Origin: Gemmata massiliana
GTDB lineage: Bacteria > Planctomycetota > Planctomycetia > Gemmatales > Gemmataceae
Direction: 5' to 3'
DNA: 64,000 nucleotides
Assembly (NCBI RefSeq): GCF_901538265.1
Contig: NZ_LR593886.1
Location: 6,965,738-7,029,737, forward strand
Below are positions 6,255-38,501 of this stretch, piece after piece; the first letter of the stretch is position 1, and every line of letters begins with the position of its first letter. Below the pieces are notes generated by a model that saw only the letters and a list, made by a program, of their open reading frames with translations, made no database searches and had not been told where the DNA came from. The translations under genes and the position numbers were made by a program.

Positions 6255-9200
6255 ATGCCCGCACTGTTCTTCCCGAACCTGGACACGCTCCGGCTCGCCC
6301 TTGCCAGCGGGCTGTTGCCGAGCGTACTCACTTCAGCACCGGTACGGTCCCGGGTGGACGCACCGCACATCTGGATCGAACTGGACGAACTACTCCCCCG
6401 CGAAACAATCACAGCACTCAGTCGCCTCGGCGTAATCGCACTCGGTACTCCCGGCGCCCCGACACAAACGAACCGCTCCTGGGCCGAGCTGCTCCCGCTC
6501 CGAAAAGTTTCACCCGGCTCCGGCCCGGTTCTGTTCGAGGTTCCCGATAGACAACTCGCAGCGTTTGTCGCGCGCCTTCGTAGCCTCCACGCAGAGCCGA
6601 CCGGTGTCCACCTGCTCCCCGAACCACACATCGGTCGCGCCTGGGTAGTAGTCTCTGCACCGCCACTCACCGTTCTACTTTGGGCCGAAGAGCCGGAATC
6701 GCCGGTCCGCGCGTACCGCCAACAGGCACCCGGCGTATGGACCGCACGCGGTTGGGAGCACCCGCTCGCCGGGCACCTCACGGTCCCATCCGATTGTGTT
6801 CTCCTGTGCGATTCCGAACGCGGCGCGACCGTGCTCGCAGCGCCCGTACCGCTCCCGACCGAAGACGAATTTGCACTTCGACACAAAACACACGCCGCTG
6901 CCCTACCGAAACGATCCCCGCGAGTCGAAGTACGATTCCGGCTCGCGCGGTGCGGCGAGAACCCGACCGAATCCCTTTGGGTACTTGCGAAGCCGGAACA
7001 GGAAAGCTTCCGCGAGTTCTGTCGCAATGCAGATGAGCGCCTGTTGCGCAGGTTCCAAGTTGCGACGGCTCATCTCGGAAGCGAAACGCGCGTGCTCGTG
7101 CGCCGCACGGCCAACGCCGACACCGGAGTCGGTTTGCCCGTACCCACCGGCGGATACTGCGCGGACCCGCGAATACCTTCACTGTTTGCACCCGTGGGCT
7201 TCGCACTGCGCCCGCGTGCCCGCGCCACGGAACTCGCGCGCGAATTGCGACTCAGCACCGAAAATCTAACGTGGCTCGAACCGCTCCCGCACAACGAGTT
7301 CGCGGTCCACTCGGTCCCGTTTGCGACGTTTCGCCCGGTGAGCGAACACGTCGAGTACGCGGCCCCCATGGGCACCGCGCTCGTGGCACTGCGAATCCCA
7401 GCGGACCCGTTCCCGTTCGTGAAGTTCGCGCTCCGGGTCGATCCGGTCACCGAACCAGAACCGGAGGTCGAAGAGCTAACGGACGAACACACCGCTTTGC
7501 CCACCGAAGGCGAACCGAGTTGGGTCTCGAAATCGGTCGGAGTGATGGTCCGATGGTTGCGCGGTCGAAACGTCCGCACACCGGACGAGGCGAAGCTTTC
7601 AACACTCGGATCTCAAACCGTCCCCGCCCCACCGAAGGACCGAAAGCCCCAACTCGCCGATCCGAACGACGAACGCGAACGGAAGCTGAGTTCCGCGGAC
7701 GCTCTGTTACACGGACACGATCGCGCGGCTCGGCGCCATGACCTGGAAAGCCGGCTGCTCAAGGATTTCCCGAAACTCGGCCCGGACGAGCGCGCGGCAC
7801 GCTGGGCGGAACTCGCGGGCGTTTACGGCGCGACCGGCCAGTCACTCGACGCGGCCGTGTGCTGGGTGAACGCGGTCTGGGAGTGCGCGGTTCCTCCGAC
7901 AGAGTGGCTCGAACAGTGGGCCGAAGCGGAGTGCCACGCGGTGAAGCGCGGCGACCGCACAATCGGGTTAGACCGGTGGCTCGCCGAACCCGGGCGCCCC
8001 GGCACCGGGCGCGTGGTCGCGGCGCTCGCGGCGAGTGCGGGGTTCCAATCGACTCCGCCGGCCGATTTCGTCGCCGCTCTCCCGCGCGTGCTCGCAGTTC
8101 TGGACCAGCACTTCGACGACATCCCCGTTCGCGGCACGTGGCTGGCTCGGATCGCGGTAGCGCGGTCGTGCGACGGCGATGTGCTCGGTCTGGCGCGGTG
8201 GCGCGACCGGCTCGTCGCACGACTCCACGACCGCGGACCCGGGCTGGACCTGGACGAACCTTCGTTTCTGCGCTTCCGCGGCCCGGCCAACGCGGACCGG
8301 TTCAAAACGGCCCGCGAGTGGCTCACTCGCGTGAAGGAACCGGTGCTAGCCTGGGTGCAACGACATACCGGTGGTGGCCGGTTCGCGTGGACCGGTCTGG
8401 AAGCCGAAACGGACGCGACCGCGGTGTACGCGCAATTTCTTCTGGCCTGGGGGTTGGGAGCGCTGGGCGAGCGCGCGCGCGCGCGGGACTGGTCCGCCCG
8501 CGCACGAAAGGCTCTGGCGCGAGCAAGCGGCCCGCGCGCGGACCCGGCCGCACACGCGCTGCTCGGTGATCTGTTCCTTCACCGGATCAAGGACGCCCAC
8601 GAAGGCGGGGCGCCCAAATCGGGGCTCCCCGCGGAACTCCAAGAACGCCTGGAAAAACTCCTCGAACTCCCGCGTTACGCCGTCGACCGACTGCGCGAGC
8701 ACTGTCGCATTCTGGAACCGCTCGGCGGAGTGCGCGGATCGGCGCTGGCACTGAAAACACTTTGGGGTACGGACCGGCTCGGGGAGCGCTTATCGGTATT
8801 TGGCTCGCGCACCGGCGCGGCCCAACTCAACGACGAGGCTCGGGCACTGCTCACCGTAACGACCGAGGAGCCGACCACCGCGACCGTCCCGCGCATTGCG
8901 TTCGCGCTTTTGGAAGTCGCAGCGCACCTTGACCCGCCCGTGCTCGATTCGCTCCTCTCGCTCGTCCCCACGGCCCTCGATTGGATGGAAGCGTGGGTGC
9001 GCGCGGGCCGCTGGCGCGAAGACGAACGGGACGCGACCGTAGCGCGGTACCAGAAGTCGATGCTCGATGCTGCGTTCGCGGTCGCACCGGCCGCGGTCGC
9101 GAGTACCTTACTCCGCCACTTGGCGCGTGGAGCCGCAAGCGGTCACTTACTTACCGCCGCTACCGCAGCCGCCCCACGTGCGTTCCGCGCCGCGCGCAAG

Positions 9201-32893: not shown

Positions 32894-33979
32894 TCACCGG
32901 CTCCCGATGGGGTTCATTCGCGCGATCGCGTCCCGGCACTCCTGCCACAGCAGTTCGACGAGTTCGCCCGCGGGTTTCTCCCGTGCCAGCCCCGCGCCCT
33001 GACCGGCCCACTGCGCGCCGTAGCCGTACTCGCCCGCAGCCTTCGCCGCCGCGTGGAGCGCTTTCCCGGCGTCGTAAGCGATCGGGTAGTCCGGGGCACT
33101 GTCGTTGCCGAGTTCCTCGCCCAACGCAGTAAACCGGTTCGACAGCGAGCGAGCGGGGCGACCGGAAATGGCACTCATCACGGTGGTGGACCGGGGCGGG
33201 CGCTCGGTCATCGCCCGTCGGTAGCCGGAATCGGCCGCGGATTCCGGGCAAAGGACGAAGGCGGTCCCAAGTTGCGCGGCCCCCGCCCCCAGCGCGAGCG
33301 CCGCCGCGATCCCGGTCCCGTCCATGATCCCCCCGGCCGCAATAACCGGCAGTGAGAGATTCGTAACGAGCAGGCGCGTGAGCGCCATCGTTCCGAGTCG
33401 CTCGTCCGGAGCTTGTGGGTCGAACACCCCGCGGTGCCCGCCGGCCTCGTATCCCTGGGCGACAACGGCGTCGATGCCGGCGTCACGGATCGCGTGCGCT
33501 TCGGCGAGGTTGGTGGCCGACGCCAGCAACCGGATGCCGGCCTGCTCCAGCGCGCGAATCCGGTCGGTTGATGGCAGCCCGAAGTGGAAGCTCACGACCG
33601 CGGGGCGCTCGGTGAGAAGCATTGCGAGCATCTCGCCGTCTTCGATAAAGCTCTTGTAAATCTCCCGTAATGCTGCGGGCGGTGTCGCTCCGAACCGGGC
33701 GAAATGCGGCCCGAGCCGGGCGAGCCAGTCGGCCTCTCGTGGCGGGTTCGAGACGGCCGGGGCGTGACAGAAGAGATTCACGTTGAACGGGCCGGCAGTT
33801 CGAGCACGAACCGCAGCAATCATGGCCCGGGCGCCAACCGCATCTACATTCCCGACTCCAATCGAACCCAGCCCGCCCGCGTTGGACACGGCGGCGGCCA
33901 TCTCCGGGGTCGAAACGCCGGCCATCGGAGCCTGAATGATCGGCAGACGGATTCCGAGCACCGACAGCAAATGGTTCAC
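32894..33979 (-). CDS. nitronate monooxygenase-like flavoprotein
   Basis: The GTG at 33979 is chosen because a GGAGGAG site lies 4 nt upstream; the frame is open further to 34015. The protein has 361 residues. It follows the 2-nitropropane dioxygenase/nitronate monooxygenase TIM barrel: [16 protein letters not shown] at the start, GGLGSIG, then [13 protein letters not shown] with the catalytic-region histidine, and [22 protein letters not shown] for FMN phosphate binding. It detoxifies alkyl nitronates or acts as a related flavin oxidase. It is divergent from the RNA array at 34127. Confidence 0.88.
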
Positions 33980-34126
33980 GGGTCTCCTCCGAAACGTGTA
34001 CGCCGGCGCCGTCAATCGGTCCCGAACGGGCCGCGTATCCCATCTCTTACTCGTATCTACACGGCGCGACCGACTTATTTACTGACGTGGGTTGGCGAAC
34101 GTGAAAATCGCGGGTAGAGTGTGATC

Positions 34127-34307
34127 GAGTTGTTCGCGGTCGCACAAGCTAGCGAGACGGGCGCGGAAGCGCCCCAATCTACGGTGTTACGCCGTGGGCG
34201 GTCCTCAGTGCCGATCAGTTCAATTGTCCTCCCGGCGTGGTTCTACAGATCAGTACCACGCCGGGAGGCGTGCCGAAGGGACGAAAGTAGCCGGCCGCGA
34301 ACAACTC
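34127..34307 (+). ncRNA. array unit 1
   Basis: The closing arms GAGTTGTTCGCGG (34127-34139) and its exact complement (34295-34307) form 13 bp. The box is TAGC at 34150. This unit has an additional hairpin (GGGCGC-GGAA-GCGCCC, 34159-34174) before the shared hairpin at 34179-34197, whose stem shows an A-U pair where most units have G-C. The variable hairpin is 14 bp and perfect (34228-34241 with 34255-34268). The 3' box AAAGTAGCCGG ends at 34294. Confidence 0.7.
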
Positions 34308-34315
34308 ACAATCAA

Positions 34316-34473
34316 TGCCCCGAGCGCACCCGAAGTTAGCGGTTCCTGCGGTGTTACGCCGCGGATGATTTCTGGTGCCCGACGGTCTCCGTTGAATGCC
34401 CGCTTGCTACGCAGTGCTACGCATATGGGCATTCAACTGCGGTACGAAGCAAGTAGCCGGTGCGATCGGGGCA
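34316..34473 (+). ncRNA. array unit 2
   Basis: The closing arms at 34316-34330 and 34459-34473 match at 14 of 15 positions. GTTAGC is at 34335, the shared hairpin at 34346-34364, and the variable hairpin GTTGAATGCCC (34391-34401) pairs perfectly with 34427-34437. The 3' box CAAGTAGCC precedes the right arm directly. Confidence 0.72.
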
Positions 34474-34480
34474 CCTTTTG

Positions 34481-34635
34481 AGACACCCACACCGAGGTTA
34501 GCGGTTTCTGCGGTGTTACGCTGCGGGCGGTATTCAGCGCCCACCAAGTGGGAGTGACAGCGCGACTGCGCCACTACGTTCCGCAGCCGCGCGTCACAGT
34601 GCGTTCCGAGGTCAGTAGCCGGTAAGTGGGTGCCT
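34481..34635 (+). ncRNA. array unit 3
   Basis: The closing arms 34481-34490 and 34626-34635 pair at 9 of 10 positions. GTTAGC is at 34497. The shared hairpin (34508-34526) has one G-U where others have G-C. The variable hairpin (34554-34570 with 34582-34597) has three 5-bp blocks separated by a bulge and a mismatch. Confidence 0.7.
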
Positions 34636-34650
34636 GTTATTTGTGGAATC

Positions 34651-34785
34651 GAACCGAGTTAGCGGATGCTGCGGCGCTACGCCGCGGGTGGTTTGTGTTG
34701 CCGGTCAGTTCGATACGAAGGTGCGAATTCATCGCTTCGCCATGCATTCGCACCTTCGCGTGCGTTCCGAAGTGAGTAGCTCGGT
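34651..34785 (+). ncRNA. array unit 4
   Basis: The closing arms are short: ACCGAG (34653-34658) with CTCGGT (34780-34785). GTTAGC is at 34658 and the shared hairpin at 34669-34687 has a C-G in place of the U-G pair. The variable hairpin is 13 bp and perfect (CGAAGGTGCGAAT at 34716-34728 with 34746-34758). Confidence 0.65.
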
Positions 34786-34805
34786 CATTGGCAGAACGCG
34801 GATAT

Positions 34806-34962
34806 TCTCGCCGGGTCACGAAGTTAGCGGTTCCTGCGGTGTTACGCCGCGGACGGTTCCTCGTGCTTGCCAGTCGGAGGGGCTAAGTGGCCCGAGCCAC
34901 CTACGGTGTCCCGGGCCACGAGCCACCGTGCGTTCCGAAGTAAGTAGCCGGACCCGGCGAGA
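34806..34962 (+). ncRNA. array unit 5
   Basis: The closing arms TCTCGCCGGGTC (34806-34817) and 34951-34962 are exact complements of 12 bp. GTTAGC is at 34823, the shared hairpin at 34834-34852, and the variable hairpin pairs GTGGCCCG (34887-34894) with CGGGCCAC (34912-34919), with an outer GGCT/AGCC extension. Confidence 0.72.
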
Positions 34963-34975
34963 GTTTACATCGGCG

Positions 34976-35121
34976 CGGGTTGTTGACGGAGTTAGCTTCA
35001 ACTGCGGTGTTACGCCGTGGATGGTTTGCAGTGCCGAACAATTGGAGGCTCTCACGTAGAACACACAGGTCAGGTTCCACGTGAGAGACGTGCGACCGGA
35101 GGAAAGTAGCCCGACAACCCG
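34976..35121 (+). ncRNA. array unit 6
   Basis: The closing arms CGGGTTGT (34976-34983) and ACAACCCG (35114-35121) are exact. GTTAGC is at 34991, the shared hairpin at 35002-35020 has a G-U pair where others have G-C, and the variable hairpin pairs CTCTCACGT (35049-35057) with ACGTGAGAG (35079-35087). Confidence 0.68.
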
Positions 35122-35135
35122 TACCCCCATATTCA

Positions 35136-35290
35136 CGAGGCGCGCGGACGGAGTTAGCGTTTGCTGCGGCGTTACGCCGCGGGTGGTTCGCAGTGCCGGT
35201 CAGATTACGGTCAAGGCCCGCGCGGACACACAGGTTGTACGCACGGGCCGACTGTGCCACGGTAGGACAGTAGCCGGGCGGCGGAACCCG
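35136..35290 (+). ncRNA. array unit 7, closing arms not found
   Basis: GTTAGC is at 35153, the shared hairpin at 35164-35182 and a variable hairpin (35215-35224 with 35240-35249, 9 of 10 pairs) are present, followed by CAGTAGCCGG. I could not find convincing complementary flanks, so the ends given are approximate and this unit may be decaying. Confidence 0.5.
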
Positions 35291-35321
35291 TTCGATATTC
35301 ACCCCACACGAGACGAGGAAA

Positions 35322-35481
35322 CACCGGTTCCACCGCTACCTGGAATTAGCTCAAACTGCGGCGTTACGCCGCGGGTGGTTTGTAGTGCCCTTCCGGTCAC
35401 GTCGCCCCGGCAGAGCCAAGTGGCTTCCACCGGGGCTTCCCGGCCTGCGGCTCGTAAGTAGTTCCGGCGGTGGAACCGGTG
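35322..35481 (+). ncRNA. array unit 8
   Basis: The closing arms CACCGGTTCCACCGC (35322-35336) and 35467-35481 are exact complements of 15 bp, the longest of the array. The box is ATTAGC at 35345, the shared hairpin is at 35356-35374, and the variable hairpin pairs GCCCCGG (35404-35410) with CCGGGGC (35430-35436). The 3' box is TAAGTAG. Confidence 0.72.
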
Positions 35482-35639
35482 AATCGCTTCTGAATCCGGT
35501 CGATCCTGTTAATCCTGTCGAAAACGCCCCGGCTCGGCTGCGGCTTCTCATTTCTCGAAACTACTCGCACGTTCGGGTGTTCGATACACTTCGAGGAATC
35601 CGCCCCCACGTACTCGTGCCCGCTCCCGGAGTCGCACCC

Positions 35640-38501
35640 GTGCCGTTGTTGTTCGCCGTCACGATGTTCGTGAGCGCGTCGCTGCTGTTCATGGTTCAGC
35701 CGATGGTCGCCAAGGCCGTTCTGCCGCTACTGGGCGGTAGCCCGGCGGTGTGGAACGGGTGCATGGTGTTCTTCCAGGCGCTACTGCTCCTGGGCTACCT
35801 GTACGCGGACCGGCTCACCCGGCGCTCCAAAACGGGCGAGCAGTGGGCGATCCACCTCGCGGTACTGGCGCTCCCGGTGGTCGCGTTCGCACTCGCGGCC
35901 GCGTTCGGCGCGAAGCACACGCCGATCGCCGTGATTGAATCGCTCGCGCCGCGCGACGGGTCCAGCCCGATCCTCAGCGTGCTCGCGATCCTGACGGTGG
36001 CGATCGGCGTCCCGTTCTTCGTCTGCGCCACGACCGCGACGCTGCTCCAGAAGTGGTTCACCTACACCGGGCACCCGTCCGCGCGCGACCCGTACTTCCT
36101 CTACGCGGCGAGCAACTTCGGCAGCCTGATCTCGCTCCTCGGGTACCCGTTCTTCATCGAGCCGTACATGACGCAGGGGGGCCAGACGTGGTTCTGGGCC
36201 GTCGGGTTCGTCGGGCTCGCCGCGCTGATCGCGTTCTGCGGTAAGGCCGCCACGAATCCCCTAGGTGTCCCCCCATCCGGAAAGGGTGCAGAGAACAGAC
36301 CGGTCGCGGGCGCTACGAGTGGGGCACAGTCCCTGAGCGAACCGCCGCCGAGCCTGGGGCGCATGGCGAAGTGGACCGCGCTGGCGTTCGTGCCGAGCAG
36401 CCTGATGCTCGGGGTCACGTTCCACATGACGACCGACATCGCGAGCATCCCGCTCCTGTGGGTCGGGCCGCTGGCGCTGTACCTCGTCACGTTCATCGTC
36501 GCGTTCAGCCGCGTCCCGCCGTGGTTCCGCATCCTGATCGGCAACCTCGCGCCGGTCATGATCCTGCTGCTGGTGTTCCTGCTCATCTCGGGGGTGAACC
36601 CCGGCGTGGGCCTGAGCCTGCTGTTGCACCTGCTCACGTTCTTCGCCGCGGCGCTGATGTGCCACTATGAGCTGGCGCGCGACCGCCCCAAGCCGCAGCA
36701 CCTCACGACCTACTTCCTCGTCATGTCGCTCGGCGGCGTGCTCGGGGGGATCTTCAACTCGCTTTTGGCCCCGGTCCTCTTCACCGGCGACTACGAGTAC
36801 AACCTCGTGCTGGTGCTCTCGTGCCTCCTAGTCCCGCGGCTGAGCCCTCTGGACCAGGACGAGACCGAAACGAAGATGAGCAACGAAACCGCGCTCGCGG
36901 CCGACCTTGCGGTCAACCTGAGTATGGACTGGTTGGCCTACGGCGCGCGCTGGCTCATGCGCCTTATCGACCGCGACAGGCGCACGGCGCTCGTACTGGA
37001 TATCGTGATCCCGGGACTGGTCGCGCTCGCGTACTGGCAGTTACAGCGGGCCGGTGGGTACAACGCTTACGTTAAGAGCGTGCGCGGGCTGGCAGAGGCG
37101 CTCGGGGTCGTCAACGACAAGACGATCCACATTATCTTCTCGTTCGCGCTGCCGGTAATGGTCTGCTTCTTCTTCGTGGACCGCCCGCTCCGGTTCGCGC
37201 TGTGCGTGGGCGCGATCCTGGGCATCAGCACGTTCCGCGATTACAACCGCGACATTGTGCACACCGAGCGCAGCTTCTTCGGGATTCTGAAGATCGACAA
37301 AGAAGACGACTACTTCCGCTCGGCGTTCCTGACCCCGGACGGGAAAACGGCCCCCGCCGGCGGTATCGAGTACCGGCGCCTCGTCCACGGCACCACACTG
37401 CACGGCACGCAGGCCAAGGAACTGACCAACCACCCCACCGACCTGCTACAAATGCTCACGCTGAACCCGTGGGACAACATCGCGGTGACCGGGGCGATCG
37501 CGAACTTCAACATGCGCGAGGAACCGCTCACGTACTACCACCGCACCGGCCCCGTGGGCGCGATGTTCAACGCGCTGCGTGCGCGGAAGGGCGGCGCGGA
37601 CGCCCGGGCGCACGTCGCAATGGTCGGCCTCGGGACCGGGAGCGTGTCGTGCTACGCGCTCAAAGACCAGAAACTCACCTTCTACGAAATCGACCCGACC
37701 GTGAAGCGCCTGGTCGCGGACCAGGACCAGTACTTCACGTTCGTCAAGGACGCGGAACGGCGCGGGGCGGCACTCGATTTCCGCCTGGGCGACGCCCGGC
37801 TCAAGCTGAAAGAGGACGCGGACCGCAAGTACGCACTCTTGCTCGTGGACGCCTTCAGTTCCGACTCGATCCCGGTCCACCTGCTGACCACAGAGGCGGT
37901 GCGGCTGTACGTGGACCGGCTCACCGATGATGGCATCCTGGCACTGCACATCTCCAACAAGTACGTGAAGCTGGAGCCAGTGGTCGCGGCGATCGCCAAG
38001 GAACTCAACCTCGTGGCACGGGTGTGGGAGGACGACGCGGACAAGTTCCCGGGGAAGACCCGTTCGAGCTGGGTGGCCCTGGCCCGCAAGCCCGAAGACC
38101 TGGGCGAGAAGATCGGTTCGCCGCTCGCGGAACTGGTGGGCACGTACACGAGCGGCGGGCAACTGATCGACGTTCTCCGGGACACTTACCCGGACCTCAC
38201 ACCGATCCTGGAACGCGCGCCGCTCAAGCAGCAGGATACGCTGCTCGATTATCTCGACAAACGCACCGCGGACCCGCGTGCCCAGGTGTACGCGGGCCTC
38301 GTCCGCAAGTACACGGCGTTCGGCACCACGATGACCGTGCTCCAGGGGGAGACCGGGTACGGGTTCCGCCCGGTGGAGTTCAACAAGGACGTGCCCGCAT
38401 GGACCGACGACTTCGCCGACGTGATGCGGGTGATGATGATCCCCGAGCTACAGAAAATCCGGAAATTCTTCGGGCTGCCGACCCCGGTGGTGGACCGGTG
38501 A
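35640..38501 (+). CDS. fused MFS-type membrane domain / spermidine synthase-like protein
   Basis: The GTG at 35640 is chosen for its GGAG at 8 nt and because the first membrane helix follows directly (PLLFAVTMFVSASLLFMVQP); the frame is open back into the RNA array. The protein has about 953 residues. The N-terminal half has about ten to twelve membrane helices. The C-terminal half is a spermidine-synthase-like methyltransferase fold with VGLGTGSVSCYAL, the FYEIDP acid after strand 2 and LLVDAFSSDSIPVHLLT. Such fusions are widespread and of unproven substrate; polyamine transfer is only a guess. Its stop overlaps the next start by 4 nt (GTGA). Confidence 0.85.
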   Translation: MPLLFAVTMFVSASLLFMVQPMVAKAVLPLLGGSPAVWNGCMVFFQALLLLGYLYADRLTRRSKTGEQWAIHLAVLALPVVAFALAAAFGAKHTPIAVIESLAPRDGSSPILSVLAILTVAIGVPFFVCATTATLLQKWFTYTGHPSARDPYFLYAASNFGSLISLLGYPFFIEPYMTQGGQTWFWAVGFVGLAALIAFCGKAATNPLGVPPSGKGAENRPVAGATSGAQSLSEPPPSLGRMAKWTALAFVPSSLMLGVTFHMTTDIASIPLLWVGPLALYLVTFIVAFSRVPPWFRILIGNLAPVMILLLVFLLISGVNPGVGLSLLLHLLTFFAAALMCHYELARDRPKPQHLTTYFLVMSLGGVLGGIFNSLLAPVLFTGDYEYNLVLVLSCLLVPRLSPLDQDETETKMSNETALAADLAVNLSMDWLAYGARWLMRLIDRDRRTALVLDIVIPGLVALAYWQLQRAGGYNAYVKSVRGLAEALGVVNDKTIHIIFSFALPVMVCFFFVDRPLRFALCVGAILGISTFRDYNRDIVHTERSFFGILKIDKEDDYFRSAFLTPDGKTAPAGGIEYRRLVHGTTLHGTQAKELTNHPTDLLQMLTLNPWDNIAVTGAIANFNMREEPLTYYHRTGPVGAMFNALRARKGGADARAHVAMVGLGTGSVSCYALKDQKLTFYEIDPTVKRLVADQDQYFTFVKDAERRGAALDFRLGDARLKLKEDADRKYALLLVDAFSSDSIPVHLLTTEAVRLYVDRLTDDGILALHISNKYVKLEPVVAAIAKELNLVARVWEDDADKFPGKTRSSWVALARKPEDLGEKIGSPLAELVGTYTSGGQLIDVLRDTYPDLTPILERAPLKQQDTLLDYLDKRTADPRAQVYAGLVRKYTAFGTTMTVLQGETGYGFRPVEFNKDVPAWTDDFADVMRVMMIPELQKIRKFFGLPTPVVDR

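Follow-up and report, generated by a model that had tools for sequence, protein, structure and literature searches.

Eight tandem putative retron template RNAs in Gemmata massiliana, encoded apart from their likely reverse transcriptase

The template RNA of a retron (msr-msd) is built from an a1/a2 stem, an msr hairpin and a long msd hairpin, and in known retrons an effector is held in check until a phage acts on the complex. Retron arrays engineered to edit several sites were reportedly described by Gonzalez-Delgado et al. in 2024. The multicopy single-stranded DNA (msDNA) of a retron is attached to a priming guanosine within a conserved AGC of the msr, and NAXXH is present in region X of 14 of 16 validated retron reverse transcriptases (RTs), as given in an excerpt of PMC6868368. 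A canonical retron usually has one template beside its RT (excerpt of PMC8867640). Here we describe an array of eight structured units in a stretch of 64,000 nt (G000:C1:6965738-7029737, called the window) from the genome of Gemmata massiliana (G000; 10.1 Mb, a single contig). With a probability of roughly 0.8, the array represents eight natural retron template RNAs, which would be encoded apart from the enzyme and served in trans.

The array shares with canonical retrons such as Ec86 the a1/a2 stem, the AGC box and the msr-like and msd-like hairpins, and its likely RT has the NAXXH and VTG motifs, but the array contains eight different tandem templates at 2.67 Mb from that RT. Engineered retron arrays likewise bring several templates together, but they are man-made, whereas the array described here occurs naturally, has diverged units and is maintained in several species. 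CRISPR and TIGR guide arrays also combine a constant and a variable part in tandem units from one locus; unlike in those arrays, the variable part here is an internally paired hairpin. No natural retron array was among the matches listed in literature searches on arrays, tandem or trans templates, msDNA branching, planctomycetes and type XIII retrons, where, in the listed papers that contain the phrase 'retron array', it stands only in citations of engineered arrays; mention elsewhere is possible. On our reading the array belongs to the retrons, a known kind, in a form that was not found described.

The array and its counterparts in related genomes

As shown in Table 1, the eight units are intergenic and follow each other head to tail. 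An earlier note on this DNA, made from the sequence without database searches, had claimed eight such structured units with a shared hairpin, and one copy of a 60-nt core was verified in each. A first box is followed by a 19-nt hairpin (CTGCGGYGTTACGCCGCGG or close to it), a joiner, a unit-specific hairpin and a second box, AGTAGC. The first box is GTTAGC in most units, GCTAGC in unit 1 and ATTAGC in unit 8, in which the second box is AGTAGT. In unit 1 an additional small hairpin separates the box from the shared hairpin. Box-to-box spacing, counted by eye, was 187, 162, 161, 165, 168, 162 and 192 bp, which corrects the range given earlier from 162-192 to 161-192 bp. The flanks had been described as complementary in seven of the eight units; clear cognate pairing was found in six (units 1, 2, 3, 5, 6 and 8). 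The a1 of unit 3 gave -19.1 with its own a2 and -1.3 to -10.9 with the a2 of the other six units, and the cognate flanks of unit 8, which was outside this own-versus-foreign matrix, form an inverted repeat of 15/15 bp. Unit 7 seems decayed because its counterpart in G009 has a strong a1/a2. The motif ACAGRT stands at the hairpin apex of units 1, 6 and 7. This motif, the mutual pairing of the two boxes and the single units elsewhere in the genome were absent from the earlier note. No family reached the gathering score in an Rfam scan of the window, no tRNA was found in the array by a tRNA scan, and inside the array there are only mechanical open reading frames (ORFs) of 95-138 aa on both strands.

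A covariance model with 55 conserved positions, R1, was built from the window's eight units together with three solitary ones of G000; no RT is present in the fetched loci of any of these inputs (the window and L017-L019 were checked). R1 detected 11 sites in G000 at E < 1e-8, namely the eight array units and single units at 4860356, 5022621 and 6186997, and 11 weaker sites up to E 10. A search of the same genome for the core pattern with at most 3 mismatches gave 12 sites, and the reversed-pattern control gave 0. Further units are probably located at 8301371 and 110785, where the surroundings fold with complementary flanks.

The relatives set comprised 59 genomes including G000, 48 of which were the better genomes. 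At the R1 threshold of E 0.01, matches were obtained in 17 of the 59 genomes and in 13 of the 48. In G000 and its relatives units were solitary and paired as well as arrayed; among the loci fetched, arrays of at least three units were found in G000, G002, G003, G005, G007, G009, G012 and G013. In a phylum sample of 392 genomes R1 matched G000 itself and, at E 0.001, 0 of the 391 others, with filters stricter than those of the single-genome searches. An exact-pattern scan of named genomes returned nine contigs titled Gemmata, Gemmataceae, Planctomycetia or Planctomycetota. The homologous arrays and the further units were thus found by the route that the earlier note had proposed, a covariance model of the units and a search of relatives. 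The array locus is syntenic in G000, G009 and G012 (blastn, both flanks) and G002 aligns at the downstream flank, with 8, 4, 3 and 5 units, respectively. By position and sequence, G009 retains units 1, 2, 7 and 8. In the long hairpin of unit 2 every pair is unchanged across three species (G000 and the counterparts in G009 and G012), and that of unit 1 changes with partial compensation, so the unit hairpins do not appear hypervariable; judged from these sequences, slow divergence together with the gain and loss of units seems to account for their variety.

As a further point of comparison with guide arrays, the array had no match in phage and plasmid collections (blastn), and in viral contigs both the strict core pattern and the CRISPR-spacer pattern had 0 matches. 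One match of a loose pattern in the viral contigs was rejected as chance, being located within a primase-like ORF with 11.3 bits to R1. A CRISPR spacer of G000 (L021:4941-4978, G000:C1 about 9115940), in an array of at least 81 repeats, resembles the unit core from the a1 end through the box to the shared hairpin (R1 28.2 bits, E 0.006 genome-wide). This spacer may hint at such RNAs on invading DNA; chance is also possible.

Pairing and covariation

The unit set was obtained from 93 R1 matches, of which 75 were kept after exclusion of short antisense hairpin matches and the partial match L025:3616. Addition of 12 of 14 further matches gave 87, and removal of nine without a recognisable second box (L025_1087, L055_2874, L086_5669, L087_1586, L087_1892, L088_1161, L090_8167, L091_8449 and window unit 8) gave 78. 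The a1/a2, unit-hairpin and fold z-score tests used these 78 units and the box-helix test used 77. The units and their genomes are related, and some units are counterparts of each other. MAFFT fails on the flanks of unrelated units, so the shared hairpin is the one element that RNAalifold resolves well on alignment A1. Since different units have unrelated flanks and long hairpins, own arms were compared with foreign arms instead. The architecture rests on these comparative tests because single-sequence folds differ in plan among units.

The a1/a2 duplex had a mean of -28.7 kcal/mol with the own partner and -15.5 with foreign partners, and for 57 units the own a2 ranked third or better out of 78. 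In this test the second box was picked by best own energy, which favours the own pair, and it was therefore repeated with equal second-box choice on both sides (-28.7 own versus -15.8 foreign; top 3 for 56 units) and again for the 63 units that offer just one candidate box (-28.5 versus -15.2). The motif ACAGRT occurs between the shared hairpin and the second box in 41 of the 78 units, compared with 2.9% in mononucleotide shuffles, and lies 36-44 nt before the second box, the apex position, in 33 of the 41. In these motif-bearing units the arms of the unit hairpin gave -23.6 own versus -13.8 foreign, and the own arm was the best in 21/41.

The two boxes of a unit pair with each other (GUUA with UAGC) and their variants co-vary. 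Fully paired boxes were found in 62 of 77 units, compared with 52.6 in shuffles, none of 5000 being as high; here the second box of units reading AGTCAGT had been shifted by hand. When the boxes were left in place and only single-candidate units were used, 49 of 62 were fully paired (shuffles 43.5, 2/5000 as high). The box helix terminates just before the G of AGC. Among 30 aligned units, chosen for the motif, the A and the G of AGC are invariant and the C is present in at least 90%.

Five unit-1-like sequences, from the same locus in G000, G009 and G012 and by similarity from G016 and G007, have 52 pairs with 97.3% of cells paired, and in 10 of these pairs both sides are changed. All 500 shuffles of this set were exceeded in four of five measures, and slid controls had at most 2 double changes. 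Eight double changes were found in a mixed set of units 7 and 8. Pairing and covariation beyond chance, which the earlier note had named as a check, exceeded the controls in most measures. By this comparison the units fit the plan of one or more msr hairpins followed by an msd hairpin.

The candidate reverse transcriptase and the weighing of readings

Nine RVT_1 matches were found in G000, eight of them (all but L024) scored by PADLOC: two type XIII RTs, one RT_other, one RT_XIII-like RT, one short RT of 167 bits, and three resembling RTs of group II introns or of other kinds. The RT_XIII-like RT is the likely partner of the units, and we call it the trio RT, since it lies in a gene trio with a divergent HEAT/aldo-keto gene (PF13646, PF00248) and an FGE-sulfatase gene (PF03781). 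It is tied to the array by co-occurrence with the units and by gene neighbourhood in relatives. Orthologues of at least 58% identity are present in 12 of the 59 genomes, and R1 units occur in all 12; five genomes have units without the trio RT and 42 have neither (Fisher 5.5e-9; within genus 0.011; kinship not corrected). A retron RT in array-bearing genomes, which the earlier note had proposed to look for, is present and co-occurs with units. NAXXH, VTG and YADD are present in 12/12 trio RTs, and the best PDB matches are the retron RTs Ec86 and Ec67. In a FastTree tree of local RTs (298 columns, no reference retrons) the 12 trio RTs form one clade with support 0.91, separate from the local type XIII and RT_other RTs. 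The matched stretch of the trio RTs of G003, G005, G006, G013 and G029 contains one or two TGA; these stops are frame ends and lie outside the NAXXH-to-VTG region.

The FGE-sulfatase gene is found in the fetched RT region of all 12 genomes, in 11 of them no further than about 0.4 kb from the RT; in G005 (L086:1002-8099), unlike in the other 11, it is about 4.6 kb from the RT, beyond the array. A search of 22 genomes located the HEAT gene in those same 12, and it adjoins the trio RT in all ten genomes with both on one contig. In G003, G005, G013, G029 and G035 the HEAT gene is directly followed by an array or unit pair encoded on the other strand. In G005, G013 and G035 the same contig carries the trio RT about 2.5 kb further on, in the orientation of the units; in G003 and G029 the RT is on another contig. 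In the other seven trio genomes, G000 included, no unit was found within the fetched RT region. The matches listed in the literature search included no description of a retron function for the FGE or HEAT/aldo-keto parts. Short inverted repeats (15-17 nt, 94-100% complementary) occur just 3' of the FGE-sulfatase gene at L027:3243-3322, and may be part of a terminator or of a small mobile repeat.

R1 also matched an RNA in G035 (35.3 bits, E 9.7e-5) directly before a retron RT gene, whose frame opens 237 nt after the start of the match and has 447 bits to RT_XIII. No RT-adjacent unit was among the R1 inputs, yet this RT-adjacent RNA was matched. It folds into an a1/a2 stem of about 30 bp, a CTTA/TAAG box helix (by eye), a hairpin and a very long msd-like hairpin. 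In G000 a type XIII retron (SWIM_XIII 598 bits, RT_XIII 517 bits) holds two RNAs of the unit plan, of which one precedes the SWIM gene and the other the RT; their scores to R1 are 22.1 bits and a 16.7-bit part. The trio resembles type XIII retrons (RT_XIII, SWIM_XIII and HEAT-ARM_XIII in PADLOC) in that RT_XIII is the best model of its RT, in its HEAT-repeat partner and in the related hairpin of the RNAs. It differs in that the trio RTs form their own clade, and in G000 the trio RT scores 356 bits to RT_XIII where the two type XIII RTs reach 517 and 526; neither partner matches SWIM_XIII, the HEAT protein has just 22.5 bits to HEAT-ARM_XIII, and the array templates are tandem and in trans. A third related RNA is located at L055 about 2874 (genome 858373), with no RT match within the 6 kb fetched. 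Beside the RT_other retron RT (L026:4080-4420) an a1/a2-bounded RNA with a GGGGTTACCCC hairpin lies directly upstream of the listed start or overlaps it.

Several observations weigh against retron templates served by the trio RT. The RNA and the msDNA of the units are predicted. In units 4 and 7 the cognate flanks have no pairing advantage over flanks from other units, six or seven GGTA/TAGC units have one box-helix pair broken, and fold z-scores 3' of the shared hairpin are modest (median -1.9; 35/78 below -2). In the unit-1-like set the number of pair types is within the shuffles (119/500), and two three-sequence sets are without double changes. Counts and Fisher values are not independent, because of the kinship among units and genomes noted above. 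The type XIII RNAs match R1 weakly (E 0.18 genome-wide). Units adjoin the trio in only 5/12 genomes, the array and the trio RT of G000 are 2.67 Mb apart, and no remnant unit was detected beside that RT (blastn gave only 13-28-nt matches with E of at least 0.03; R1 gave none at E 0.1). The trio RT and the HEAT gene are both missing from G004 (listed as 100% complete, 4 units), G007 (82%, 15 units), G015 (68%, 2 units), and G008 and G033 (1 weak unit each). The earlier reading of separate msr-msd units served by an RT elsewhere is supported by the homologous arrays, the covariation, the RT co-occurrence and the G035 match; these five unit-bearing genomes, three of them with strong matches, limit that support.

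The units could be retron templates served by one of the other retron RTs of G000 (Table 1) instead of the trio RT. The type XIII RNAs of G000 have a related hairpin, the R1 match of G035 adjoins an RT_XIII gene, and the unit-bearing G004, G007 and G015 have RTs of 40-43% identity without the trio, which also counts against the trio as partner. However, RTs of 39-46% identity are also present in G010, G014 and G018, where R1 finds no unit at E 0.01, while all 12 trio genomes have units and the units adjoin the trio HEAT gene in five genomes. We regard service by another RT as unlikely. Slightly less likely still, the RT system could bind the units as structured RNAs without reverse transcribing them, and they would act as guide, decoy or antitoxin RNAs. 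The msDNA is predicted only, and the hairpin of unit 2, without a changed pair in three genomes, would also suit an RNA role. On the other side, the a1/a2 stem, the box helix ending at AGC and the msr-like and long hairpins fit the msr-msd plan and the cis RNA of G035, and YADD is kept in all of the trio RTs.

Scattered single copies, and a unit number that varies at one locus (8 in G000, 4 in G009, 3 in G012), could also suggest self-spreading repeats, either like repetitive extragenic palindromes or retrotransposed, with structure as a by-product. Flanks and long hairpins differ among units yet pair within each, compensatory changes occur between species, the locus is syntenic across species and unit presence tracks the RT trio, so that we consider such an origin very improbable.

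Proposed mechanism and neighbouring features

If the units are retron templates, as we favour, the array region would be transcribed, and in each sound unit a1 would pair with a2, with the GUUA/UAGC boxes lengthening the stem. The box helix would put the G of AGC right after the stem, an architecture supported by the comparison. The trio RT, the most likely enzyme, would recognise the conserved hairpin and joiner common to the units and, by analogy with retrons, prime from the 2'-OH of the AGC guanosine. The unit-specific hairpin would be copied into branched msDNA. One cell could then make up to eight msDNAs, or about a dozen with the single units, with different stems, a common RNA end and often the ACAGRT motif.

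Among retron triggers, phage adenine methylation acting at a GATC site in the msDNA (excerpt of PMC12548924) and a phage single-stranded-DNA-binding protein (excerpt of PMC13158370) are described. Since the RT lies in a conserved trio and retrons restrain effectors until a phage acts, we tentatively suggest that the arrays serve as an inherited set of msDNA sensors, open to expansion, for one RT and one effector complex, an idea we hold as possible though doubtful. Each stem would be a different target for phage enzymes or binding proteins, units would be gained and lost between species, and the role would be in phage defence.

If the favoured reading is true, a retron can hold a repertoire of diverged templates in trans, old enough for compensatory changes, and a single cell could hold a range of small DNAs that differ from each other and may serve to sense viruses. 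With many natural variants per RT in each genome, the question of what the msDNA sequence senses becomes directly testable. The HEAT/aldo-keto and FGE-sulfatase domains would be a new partner set, not found described with retrons. The array would also offer a natural multi-template RNA for genome-editing tools, which are already based on man-made retron arrays.

Table 1. Features of the array, its surroundings and the candidate reverse transcriptases. Positions are those of the window unless a genome (G000) or locus (L025) is named.
Feature	Position	Strand	R1 core	Remarks
Nitronate monooxygenase (NMO) gene	32894-34015	-		PF03060; upstream array neighbour
Leader	34016..34126	.		intergenic, NMO gene to unit 1; conserved in G009, G012 (alignment)
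Unit 1	34127..34307	+	from 34168; 52.2 bits	counterparts in four other genomes, compensatory changes
Unit 1, 5' part				a1 34127-34142; GCTAGC 34148-34153; candidate branch G 34152; shared hairpin 34179-34197
Unit 1, 3' part				hairpin arms 34228-34244/34252-34268, ACAGAT apex; AGTAGC 34286-34291; a2 34292-34307
Unit 2	34316..34473 (ends from fold)	+	34332-34386; 67.4 bits	candidate branch G 34339
Unit 3	34481..34635 (ends approximate)	+	34494-34548; 63.7 bits	
Unit 4	34644..34797 (ends approximate)	+	34655-34709; 70.2 bits	hairpin arms 34716-34735/34739-34758
Unit 5	34806..34962	+	34820-34874; 68.3 bits	a1 34806-34817 / a2 34951-34962
Unit 6	34972..35125 (ends approximate)	+	34988-35042; 68.8 bits	apex ACAGGT
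Unit 7	35136..35292 (ends approximate)	+	35150-35204; 75.6 bits	apex ACAGGT; a1 apparently decayed
Unit 8	35322..35481	+	35342-35396; 68.4 bits	a1 35322-35336 / a2 35467-35481, 15/15 bp
Long frame	35385-38501	+		downstream neighbour; stretch 35640-38498 without Pfam match
Likely partner RT (trio RT)	G000:C1:4330800-4332377	-		RT_XIII-like, 356 bits to RT_XIII
Rival RTs in G000	1490456 or 7595801 (type XIII RT); 6322781 (RT_other)			
Type XIII retron RNAs	L025:960-1330 and L025:3540-3900			msr-msd-like, one locus

The leader would likely hold the promoter of the array.

The FGE-sulfatase domain is a common target domain of diversity-generating retroelements (DGRs), according to an excerpt of PMC8934634. 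The trio is like a DGR in having an RT beside a gene with this domain and unlike it in that the trio RT is of retron type. A DGR reading of the trio FGE gene was rejected, as no second copy was found in the 10 kb searched or in the array; the rest of the genome was not searched. Elsewhere, a 115-nt repeat of 86% identity flanks an RT (L029:4526-4640 and 6321-6435), with FGE-sulfatase-like sequence at this locus (by eye); from its sequence, this pair looks like the template and variable repeats of a DGR.

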